The translations under genes and the position numbers were made by a program. From assembly GCF_001636295.1 (NCBI RefSeq), contig NZ_CP014209.1, positions 3,762,973 through 3,826,972 of the forward strand: a stretch of 64,000 nucleotides of DNA, in the 5' to 3' direction. Of the stretch, positions 8,558-45,185 are shown piece after piece (the stretch's first letter is position 1; every line of letters begins with the position of its first letter). The notes under the pieces were generated by a model that worked only from the letters and a program-made list of their open reading frames with translations, made no database searches and was not told the DNA's origin. This stretch comes from Isoptericola dokdonensis DS-3. Its GTDB lineage: Bacteria; Actinomycetota; Actinomycetes; Actinomycetales; Cellulomonadaceae.

Positions 8558-8599
8558 ACGGACGGCCCCGCACCTCCGAGGAGGTGCGGGGCCGTCCGT
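8558..8599. terminator. Hairpin between the phosphoribosyltransferase and FKBP genes
   Basis: A perfect 19-bp inverted repeat with a 4-nt loop (left arm starts acggacggccccgcacctc) lies downstream of the minus-strand FKBP gene, so it most likely terminates that gene. Confidence 0.65.
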
Positions 8600-11730: not shown

Positions 11731-11772
11731 ACGACGACGGCTCGCCCTCGGCGGAGGGCGAGCCGTCGTCGT
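11731..11772. terminator. Bidirectional terminator between hydrolase and coiled-coil genes
   Basis: A perfect 19-bp inverted repeat (acgacgacggctcgccctc and complement) with a ggcg loop lies between convergent genes. Confidence 0.8.
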
Positions 11773-16121: not shown

Positions 16122-17069
16122 ATGAGCAACCCCATGCCCGAGCCGAGCATCAGCACGCGCGGCGCCGTCGACCTGTCGGCGCTCACCCGCCCCCAGGCCC
16201 CGCCCCCCGGTGAGCCCGGCGGTGCCCCCTCGGCGGGCGGGTACGTCGTCGACGTCACCGACGCGAACTTCCAGCAGGTCGTGCAGGACTCGACCCGCTA
16301 CCCCGTCGTCGTCCTGCTGTGGATGCCGACCGACCAGGCCAACGCCGACCTCGCGACCCTCCTCGGCCGACTCTCCGACGAGTACGCCGGCCGGTTCCTC
16401 CTCGGCCGTGTCGACGTGCAGACCTCCCCGCAGATCGCCGCCGCGTTCCAGGCGCAGGGCGTGCCCACCGTCGTCGCGGTCCTCCAGGGCCAGCCGCTCC
16501 CGCTGTTCGCCGGCGCCGCCTCCGAGGAGCAGGTCCGCGGCGTCCTCGACCAGGTACTCGCCGCGGCCGAGCAGAACGGTGTCACCGGCCGTGCCCCCGC
16601 CCAGGGCGGCGAACCGGAGGCCGAGCGGCCCGCCGCGGAGCCGGAGCCCGAGCCGCTGCCGCCGCTGCACCAGGAGGCGTACGACGCCATCGAGCGCGAC
16701 GACCTCGACGCCGCCGCCACCGCCTACGAGCGCGCCATCAAGCAGGACCCGAAGGACACCGACGCCGTCGCCGGCCTCGCGCAGGTCCACCTCATGCAGC
16801 GCACCCGCGACGCCGACCTCCAGCAGGTCCGCGCCGCCGCGGCCGCCGCACCCGGCGACGTCGACGCCCAGCTCGCCGTCGCCGACACGGACATGCTCGG
16901 CGGCAAGGTCGAGGACGCCCTCGCGCGGCTCCTCGACCTGCTCCCCGCCGCGGACGCCGAGGCCAAGGAGAAGCTGCGCGCGCGCCTCGTCGAGTACTTC
17001 GAGGTCGTCGGCGCCACGGACCCGCGCGTGGCCAAGGCCCGCCGCCACCTGGCGATGTACCTGTACTGA
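16122..17069 (+). CDS. YbbN/CnoX-type thioredoxin-fold and TPR protein
   Basis: 315 residues. After a Pro-rich start, residues about 40-150 form a thioredoxin fold (PVVVLLWMPTDQANADL, then GRVDVQTSPQIAAAFQ, then the cis-Pro loop QGVPTVVAVLQGQPL). The CxxC of true thioredoxins is replaced by MPTD, so it has no dithiol activity. Residues about 180-315 are TPR-like helices (AYDAIERDDLDAAATAYERA). E. coli YbbN/CnoX has this layout and works as a holdase feeding GroEL and DnaK. A similar role is inferred. The gene appears leaderless, and a long hairpin follows it. Confidence 0.85.
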   Translation: MSNPMPEPSISTRGAVDLSALTRPQAPPPGEPGGAPSAGGYVVDVTDANFQQVVQDSTRYPVVVLLWMPTDQANADLATLLGRLSDEYAGRFLLGRVDVQTSPQIAAAFQAQGVPTVVAVLQGQPLPLFAGAASEEQVRGVLDQVLAAAEQNGVTGRAPAQGGEPEAERPAAEPEPEPLPPLHQEAYDAIERDDLDAAATAYERAIKQDPKDTDAVAGLAQVHLMQRTRDADLQQVRAAAAAAPGDVDAQLAVADTDMLGGKVEDALARLLDLLPAADAEAKEKLRARLVEYFEVVGATDPRVAKARRHLAMYLY

Positions 17070-17109: not shown

Positions 17110-17210
17110 GGTGGTGGGGACGAGGTGCGGGGCGCGGTCGCGTTCACGGGCCCCAGGGGGCCCTCCACTCCCGGTCTGACGACCGCGCCCCGCACCTCGT
17201 CCCCACCACC
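17110..17210. repeat. 101-nt hairpin, copy 1 of a conserved-apex element
   Basis: A perfect 31-bp inverted repeat (17110-17140 / 17180-17210) encloses a 39-nt loop that contains its own gggcccc / ggggccc stem. The apical 57 nt (17132-17188) match 45109-45165 at 54 of 57 positions. The outer 22-bp arms are unrelated to those of the other copy yet fully self-complementary. It lies between the convergent co-chaperone and glgB genes, so it may act as a bidirectional terminator. Confidence 0.85.
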
Positions 17211-44091: not shown

Positions 44092-45069
44092 ATGACCAAC
44101 CGCACCGTCCTCGTCCTCCTCGACCCCGCCGGCGAGGTCCGCTCCAGCATCCTGGAGCTCCTCACCATCGGCCGCGCGCTCGGCCGCGTCGAGGCGGTCA
44201 CGCTCGAGTCGCCGTCCGTCGAGGCGCTCGCCCAGCTCGGCGCCCACGGTGTCGAGACCGTCCACCAGGCCGAGCTGCCCGCCGACCTGCGCGGCGACGC
44301 CCGGCACCTGTCCGGCGTCGTCGCCGCGACCCTCGCCGCGGCCGTCCGGCGCACCGACGCCGACGTCGTCCTCGCGCCGTCCACGTTCGCCGCGAAGGAG
44401 GCCGTCGCGCTCGCCGGGCAGGCGCTCGGCGCGGGCGTCGTCATCGACGCCGCCGGCGTGAGCGAGGACGAGCAGGGTCGGATCGTCGGCACCAAGCGCG
44501 TCTTCGCCGGGTCGTGGGACACCACCAGCGTCGTGACGACCGACGTCGCGCTGCTCACCGTCCGCGCCAACACCGTCGTGCCGAAGCCCGCGGACGCGGC
44601 CGTCGCCACCGAGGTGGAGGGCTTCGCCGTGAGCGTCGACGCCCCCCTGCCCACCGTCACGCAGCGCGTGCCCGTCGTGCGCGACGCCGCCCGCCCCACG
44701 CTCGAGGAGGCGGCCACCGTCATCGCGGGCGGACGCGGCACCGGCGGCGACTTCGGCCCCGTCGAGGACCTCGCCGACGCGCTCGGCGCCGCCGTCGGCG
44801 CGTCCCGCGACGCCGTCTTCGAGGGCTGGTTCGACCGCTACGTCGGCCAGACGGGCGTCACGGTCGCCCCGCGTCTCTACATCGGCGCCGGCATCTCCGG
44901 CGCCCCCCACCACCGCGGCGGCATGCAGGCCTCCCAGGTGATCGTCGCCGTCAACTCCGACCCCGAGGCGCCGATCTTCGAGATCTGCGACTTCGCCGTC
45001 GTCGGGGACCTCGCGGACGTCCTGCCCCAGGCCGCGGAGGTCATCCGGGCGCACAAGGCCGCTCGGTAG
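44092..45069 (+). CDS. etfA: Electron transfer flavoprotein, alpha subunit
   Basis: 325 residues. The C-terminal FAD domain is unmistakable: GGRGTGGDFGPVEDLADALG, ASRDAVFEGWFDRYVGQTG, LYIGAGISGAPHHRGGM and VIVAVNSDPEAPIFEICDF. The N-terminal half is the adenosine-like fold shared with EtfB. It forms a heterodimer with EtfB. No acyl-CoA dehydrogenase or ETF:quinone oxidoreductase gene is present in the window. A gaggacc motif precedes ATG 44092. The gene is followed by two long hairpins. Confidence 0.95.
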   Translation: MTNRTVLVLLDPAGEVRSSILELLTIGRALGRVEAVTLESPSVEALAQLGAHGVETVHQAELPADLRGDARHLSGVVAATLAAAVRRTDADVVLAPSTFAAKEAVALAGQALGAGVVIDAAGVSEDEQGRIVGTKRVFAGSWDTTSVVTTDVALLTVRANTVVPKPADAAVATEVEGFAVSVDAPLPTVTQRVPVVRDAARPTLEEAATVIAGGRGTGGDFGPVEDLADALGAAVGASRDAVFEGWFDRYVGQTGVTVAPRLYIGAGISGAPHHRGGMQASQVIVAVNSDPEAPIFEICDFAVVGDLADVLPQAAEVIRAHKAAR

Positions 45070-45088: not shown

Positions 45089-45185
45089 GGCCTGGTCCGA
45101 GGGCCTGCGCGCGGTCGCGCTCACGGGCCCCAGGGGGCCCTCCGCTTCCGGTCTGACGACCGCGCGCAGACCCTCGGACCAGGCC
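45089..45185. repeat. 97-nt hairpin, copy 2 of a conserved-apex element
   Basis: A 29-bp inverted repeat with one mismatch (45089-45117 / 45157-45185) encloses a 39-nt loop identical to that of copy 1 (17141-17179) at 36 of 39 positions. The inner 9-bp stem gcgcggtcg / cgaccgcgc is shared exactly; the outer 20-bp arms are different in sequence but pair with each other. Like copy 1 it lies between convergent genes (etfA and moaD). Confidence 0.85.

Follow-up and report, generated by a model that had tools for sequence, protein, structure and literature searches.

A family of roughly 100-letter palindromes with a conserved loop and variable, self-complementary arms in Isoptericola and its relatives

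Two long hairpins in the chromosome of Isoptericola dokdonensis DS-3 have nearly identical tips and largely dissimilar arms, each of which nevertheless pairs with its own partner, raising the question of what kind of element keeps its loop constant while its stem changes. Both lie in the window analysed here (64,000 nucleotides of contig NZ_CP014209.1), and their coordinates refer to its plus strand. Copy 1 (17110–17210) holds a 31-nt 5' arm (17110–17140) and a 31-nt 3' arm (17180–17210) forming a 31-bp perfect stem around a 39-nt apical loop (17141–17179), which follows the loop consensus of 55 core copies and bears an inner hairpin (GGGCCC/GGGCCC, 17148–17163) predicted by RNA folding. Copy 2 (45089–45185) pairs two 29-nt arms (45089–45117 and 45157–45185) with a single mismatch around a loop also of 39 nt (45118–45156), again with a predicted inner hairpin (45125–45140). 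A 315-aa gene with a TPR_20 domain (Pfam; 16122–17069, plus strand) ends 40 nt before copy 1, and a 325-aa gene with electron transfer flavoprotein (ETF) alpha domains (Pfam; 44092–45069, plus strand) ends 19 nt before copy 2. The former is a crude gene call and the latter comes from the ORF list, having been missed by the crude predictor used for the genes around the copies, whose calls are verified in part by Pfam and HemD homologues. The first-pass annotation had described a common 57-nt apex (3 differences, 54 of 57 positions identical), almost perfect self-pairing of the arms, and a location of both copies between convergent genes, all of which hold. Its statement that the outer arms have no similarity was slightly too strong, although only 10 of 20 positions match when the arms are anchored at the apex.

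Stems of this kind do not occur by chance. The window contains three perfect inverted repeats of at least 18 bp with a short spacer, the longest of 31 bp, whereas each of 30 second-order Markov sequences contained none, their longest being 15 bp. RNA folding of the four strands of the two hairpins gave z-scores from −7.0 to −10.9. The ordinary hairpins of the window hold stems of 14–19 bp and mostly short loops; those at 8558–8599 and 11731–11772, for instance, are intergenic, with 19-bp perfect stems and 4-nt loops.

The two window copies are members of a sizeable family. With copy 1 as the query, BLAST returned 41 rows in the genome of origin (designated G000), and a covariance model built from 25 copies (R1) returned 70 rows, which correspond to 55 distinct places, the 15 surplus rows being the same palindromes read from the opposite strand. 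The first-pass annotation had stated that many copies in such a search of the genome and its relatives would support a family, and that the existence of only two, arisen by simple duplication, would refute it; the 55 places in the one genome and the matches in 18 of 18 genomes of the genus settle this point in favour of the former. In a first survey, 20 of 38 genomes matched, namely all 18 Isoptericola and 2 others of the same family, with 2 to 70 rows per congener and expansions in the genome of origin (70), in G010 (67), and in G017 (27). Under stricter filters, with which weak matches are lost, 38 of 200 genomes of the family matched at 1e-6, belonging to 6 of the 25 sampled genera, and one of 396 genomes of the phylum, namely the genome of origin. 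A pattern scan of all species, which admitted a single short range of gap lengths in the loop and required GGGA following the motif, yielded 79 stretches, 77 of them in Isoptericola, Krasilnikoviella, Promicromonospora, Myceligenerans, Puerhibacterium, and Xylanimonas. The other two come from a Firmicutes MAG (L155), where the hairpin is real, and from a Halobacteriales MAG (L191), where the stretch has no arms and is regarded as a chance match.

The window copy found no match in plasmid and phage collections, nor did a Firmicutes copy in the plasmid collection, and of two scans of viral contigs, the first yielded 14 stretches, all lacking the hairpin, and the second yielded 0, so that transport by plasmids or phages is unsupported. 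In Rfam, no family exceeded its gathering score in the window; with an E-value cut-off, weak sub-gathering matches, mostly to microRNA hairpins, appeared in 6 loci and in none of 4 Firmicutes loci, and the assignment to a known RNA family was rejected. Literature searches on palindromic repeats of Isoptericola and Promicromonospora and on conserved loops, which reached little of the subscription literature, retrieved no paper on the repeat. The earlier suspicion of a repeat or RNA family is borne out to the extent that there is a real repeat family outside Rfam, with a conserved apex, self-complementary variable arms, and many copies, which are found after genes and within them.

A typical copy has a unit length of ~95–105 bp, a stem of 28–32 bp (93 of 108 copies), and a loop of 38–42 nt bearing its own hairpin of 6–7 bp. 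Among 127 non-redundant hairpins, the loop most often measures 39 nt (60 hairpins), followed by 38 nt (28) and 41 nt (17), and ranges from 36 to 47 nt in the remainder; its positions are mostly invariant in the 55 core copies, and the apex pattern fits 119 of the 127. The 5' strand of the inner hairpin reads GGGCCC, GCGCCC, GGGCGC, GGTCGC, or GGCCGC and is paired in every case, and in the inner hairpin as seen in copy 1, two of the six pairs are altered on both sides among 25 copies. An extra pair within the apex also covaries (T-A in 96, C-G in 22, and T-G in 1; n = 119). A hammerhead-like core, judged by eye, was dropped because its residues are not invariant.

In the arms, it is the pairing that is conserved. 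Across 25 copies, 23 of 28 stem pairs have changed on both sides and 98.9% of the cells are paired, a level far above that of all shuffle and slide controls. Stems are free of mismatches in 73 of the 127 hairpins and carry at least one in the other 54. The 3074 stem cells of 108 copies comprise 3023 Watson–Crick pairs (~98%), 28 A-C, 8 G-T, and 15 others, which means that G-T wobble is nearly absent; in RNA helices, G-U pairs are normally plentiful. A-C, the wobble of the opposite strand, is thus in excess over G-T, with a p of ~0.001 for non-coding copies, uncorrected for shared ancestry. No U tract was seen among the letters of the 3' flanks.

The unit that spreads is the complete hairpin. 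The 53 hairpins of the genome of origin with stems of at least 24 bp fall into one cluster of 14 with common arms, clusters of 3 and 2, and 34 singletons. Members of the large cluster have their full 28-bp arms in common, with at most 4 mismatches in 28, and their flanks drop to chance identity (0.31), the fall taking about 5 nt outside the 5' arm and being less abrupt outside the 3' arm. Because the whole arms are common to these 14 copies and the flanks are unlike, the entire hairpin must have been copied, the boundary evidence coming from the one subfamily young enough to provide it. For a comparison of sites with the congener G010, 16 copies were prepared, the flanks of 15 were searched, and 14 were located, where G010 holds the hairpin in the same orientation in 5, in the opposite orientation in 1, and lacks it in 8. 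The opposite orientation is seen in the G010 site matching L024 (L290, 1084–1177). Neither a target-site duplication nor a base-exact insertion point is readable in the flanks of the two genomes, because these are too diverged and full of other repeats. In G000 and G010, many copies have flanks filled with arrays of a ~20-bp repeat (GCGAGTCAGCGC or the complement of this), among them L014, L020, L027, L029, and L075 and their G010 partners, and two units of the repeat are present in the window (8618 and 8638). The search for a mobilising enzyme, carried out with the Y1 transposase family PF01797, found none in 18 of 18 genomes of the genus and matched 5 of 14 control genomes.

Copies also reside within protein genes. 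The hairpin is in frame inside a gene in at least 13 of 138 loci, with L142 as a fourteenth, and the host genes, recognised by Pfam or by homologues, include an HrpA-like helicase with DUF3418, an AAA/RNase_H_2 protein, an alpha/beta-hydrolase–AMP-binding fusion, the glycine cleavage P protein (GcvP), HemD, and a PfkB kinase, the hairpin being antisense to the gene in the last three. Among 16 aligned HemD homologues, 4 have the left arm, the loop, and the right arm as extra residues, one keeps the residues of a single arm, and 11 are without the insert, including a near relative from strain AK164. Pairing is equal in coding copies (412 of 418 cells) and in the others (3149 of 3209).

At sites common to two species, the two arms change together. 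Comparison of 25 orthologous hairpins between G000 and G010, over 24 bp each (600 pairs), showed 489 pairs unaltered, 70 with both partners replaced, and 41 with a mismatch in one of the species, indels accounting for part of the last class. This upholds, at orthologous sites, the earlier proposal that arms diverge with their pairing retained. The loops of the same hairpins are identical at 625 of 663 positions, and fourfold sites of the two genomes differ at 27.9% (2841/10173). In the outer half of the stems, 59 of 300 pairs are compensated and 29 of 300 mismatched. As many as 41 of the 70 compensated changes are of the transversion type, unreachable through a G-U or A-C intermediate, and there are 13 runs of adjacent compensated pairs, each of 2–5 pairs. 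Both window sites are kept between species with compensated arms, as is, across three genera, a convergent site next to a CRP-like regulator gene, found in 9 loci; pairwise comparison of 7 of them left 10–26 of 26 stem pairs unchanged, with the rest compensated and at most one mismatch. Within the HrpA-like gene of four Promicromonospora, whose fourfold divergence is 0.24–0.35, 39–42 of 42 loop positions and 23–26 of 26 stem pairs are unchanged, and all the stem changes are compensated.

Selection on structure, one of the explanations offered by the first-pass annotation, is part of the answer, although the rarity of wobble, the changes without a wobble route, and the adjacent runs also fit copying from one arm to the other. 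Template switching has been described as creating and maintaining stems, including by multibase compensatory changes, in the accessible part of a study of this process (PMC8794818). Frequent compensation, few standing mismatches, and multibase jumps are the pattern to be expected if templates are switched between the two arms of a palindrome. Selection must act as well, since resident copies, including those in genes, retain a conserved loop; and because a purely selfish resident copy should decay, either a function for the host or re-homogenisation is also needed.

The explanation preferred here, which is given about an even chance of being correct, is that of a family of mobile palindromic DNA elements with a conserved tip, whose arms are kept complementary largely by template switching. 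The spreading unit would be the whole hairpin, two arms of ~28–32 bp around the conserved loop of ~39 nt, with most landings directly downstream of a stop codon and some in frame within protein linkers. The loop sequence would be kept through recognition by the copying or inserting machinery, acting on a single-stranded DNA foldback or on RNA, and the arms, needing complementarity alone, could drift in sequence. A mutation in one arm would be copied into the other by template switching during replication, and the remaining mismatches would be cleared by purifying selection. Between convergent genes, the hairpin very probably also serves as a bidirectional transcript end, which would make it better tolerated there. 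Several observations weigh against this explanation: PF01797 is absent from all 18 genomes of the genus and plasmids and phages gave no match, no target-site duplication or base-resolved empty intergenic site can be read, loops are conserved at old vertical sites such as the HrpA-like gene of Promicromonospora, and 54 of 127 stems are imperfect and 41 of 600 orthologous pairs mismatched in one species.

The main rival, possible though rather doubtful, is an RNA element owned by the host and acting at 3' ends, as a strong terminator, bidirectional for the most part, or as an mRNA protector, with an apex that binds a protein and arms that change by ordinary compensatory substitution. The placement of the copies argues for it. 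According to the crude gene calls, 71 of 108 copies lie between convergent genes, 15 are tandem sense, 12 tandem antisense, 1 divergent, and 9 intragenic or undetermined, the majority being located directly downstream of a stop codon. A same-strand gene precedes 86 of the 99 classified copies, at a median distance of 46 nt, compared with 219 nt for the gene on the opposite flank, and for every one of the 71 convergent copies the same-strand gene is the closer of the two, a sidedness that suits a role at the transcript level and counts against the mobile-element explanation. The retention of the window sites and of the CRP-like-regulator site across species and genera with compensated arms, the covarying apex pair, and the strong conservation of the loops point in the same direction. 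On the other hand, copies in translated genes are paired and conserved equally well, the hairpin is antisense in GcvP, HemD, and PfkB, and orientation in tandem genes is near even (15 versus 12). In addition, the lower number of G-T than of A-C cells (8 versus 28) is the opposite of what a sense RNA should show, and the number of rows varies from 2 to 70 among congeners.

Some copies occur in close pairs, five of which were noticed in the genome of origin, all in plus-then-minus order (G000:C1:14548/15200, 1711987/1712247, 1831788/1832180, 2283954/2284222, and 3200887/3201072); the same order was seen in close pairs in G010, G008, G015, and the Firmicutes genome. At the 3' ends of ETF and TPR orthologues in other congeners (L107, L108, L110, L119, L127, L131, L132, and L136), other long palindromes were found with quite different arms (for example TGTGGGC..., GCAACGAGCGTGCTGG..., and GGTCGAGCCTGTCGAGACC), and several palindromic families may be competing for these gene-end sites.

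A host site acting at the level of DNA, in which a cruciform or single-stranded hairpin would be bound through its apex by a nucleoid, repair, or replication protein, with its copies under selection for chromosome organisation, seems improbable. Strict Watson–Crick pairing would suit both strands equally, and the structure is the same whether the DNA is coding or not and whichever way the copy is oriented, as expected of such a site. However, copy number varies widely among close relatives, and 8 of the 14 sites examined in G000 are empty in G010, unlike a conserved system of chromosomal sites.

Far less probable still, and now largely refuted, is the earlier proposal that a 57-nt apex invades the loops of terminator hairpins already in place. 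It draws on the 14–19 bp stems of the ordinary window hairpins, close to the outer arms of 20–22 nt, and on the mostly unrelated outer arms within one genome (34 singletons of 53). Nevertheless, the 14 related copies moved with their full 28-bp arms, the HemD insert comprises the whole hairpin with both arms, copies inside genes had no terminator to invade, stem length is narrow, and where a site is shared, the arms of orthologues have diverged through compensated changes. As for REP elements moved by a RAYT (Y1 family) transposase, their palindromic, mostly extragenic nature and occasional inverted pairs are matched here, but at the sensitivity of this search they are rejected as next to impossible, given arms whose sequence is unconserved (both partners vary in 23 of 28 stem pairs) and PF01797 in 0 of 18 genomes of the genus versus 5 of 14 controls.

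Returning to the mobile palindrome, its reach may extend beyond Actinobacteria. Six related copies are present in a MAG of a rumen Firmicute, titled Eubacterium sp., one of them between genes presumed to be rpmA and obgE. Five fold as long hairpins whose arms are mutually unrelated and of local composition, mostly AT-rich; in the sixth (L293, 1618–1745; G214:C14 from 17017), additional inverted repeats interrupt the region of the loop. With one deviating, they have a common core (CTCGGGGCACGTTCACGC ... GCTCCACTTCGGG) that is nearly the apex motif of Isoptericola. Covariance model R2 (29 sequences) includes the Firmicutes copy L155, which makes that match circular, and the other three Firmicutes matches, outside the model, scored 36.6–49.2 bits. 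Among relatives of the MAG, no copy was detected in 290 of 291 genomes of its class, searched with stricter filters, and 149 of 150 of its family, and contamination of the MAG may be the source of these copies. It is conceivable, though unlikely, that the family is a hairpin parasite that crosses phyla, in which the apex would be the sole inherited sequence and arms of any sequence would be rebuilt and kept perfect by template switching in the host, so that the element would adopt the base composition of GC-rich Isoptericola or of a largely AT-rich rumen Firmicute and could even reside in frame in genes.

Covariation in stems is usually taken as proof of a functional RNA. The large natural set described here, with its copies inside genes, makes it possible, at known divergence, to distinguish the retention of pairing by selection from its retention through a mutational process. 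Protein-coding palindromes, of which those of Rickettsia are the best known, are also extended by it to GC-rich Actinobacteria, and it provides a concrete apex with which a mobilising or binding factor can be sought.

Several known systems bear comparison with this family. Like intrinsic bidirectional terminators, its members are very stable hairpins just after stop codons (86 of 99, at a median of 46 nt) and between convergent genes; unlike them, they have a conserved 39-nt loop with its own hairpin, stems of ~30 bp, copies within genes, and no visible U tract. REP/BIME elements associated with RAYT are likewise short palindromes dispersed close to the ends of genes and at times arranged as inverted pairs, but the Isoptericola family conserves its loop rather than its stem. 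The stems maintained by template switching (PMC8794818) are similar in being kept perfect through multibase compensatory change, and Nematomorpha mitochondria hold coding palindromes, perfect inverted repeats within genes (PMC6649704); unlike the Isoptericola repeat, neither constitutes a dispersed family with a conserved apex in the accessible portions of these reports.

The closest likeness is to the Rickettsia palindromic elements (RPE), which, as far as the consulted parts of their descriptions go, are palindromes of ~100–150 bp, intergenic and in frame in conserved protein genes, with no known transposase (PMC10969869, PMC2229807), and to the related coding palindromes of Wolbachia and Methanocaldococcus. 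The Isoptericola family resembles them in size and dispersal (~95–105 bp at 55 places), in its intergenic and in-frame placement (13 loci and L142), and in having no known transposase. The RPE stem tabulated in the consulted part of one of these papers (PMC2229807) holds 12 contiguous Watson–Crick pairs, larger stems having mispairs, whereas the Isoptericola arms are strictly complementary, with a conserved loop and free arm sequence, in another phylum and in very GC-rich DNA. The relation is a likeness by description, in which sequence homology is not expected and membership is not claimed. The family is best described as coding and intergenic palindromes of the Rickettsia kind, in which the organisation as a whole—a conserved apex with free but concerted arms—is new.
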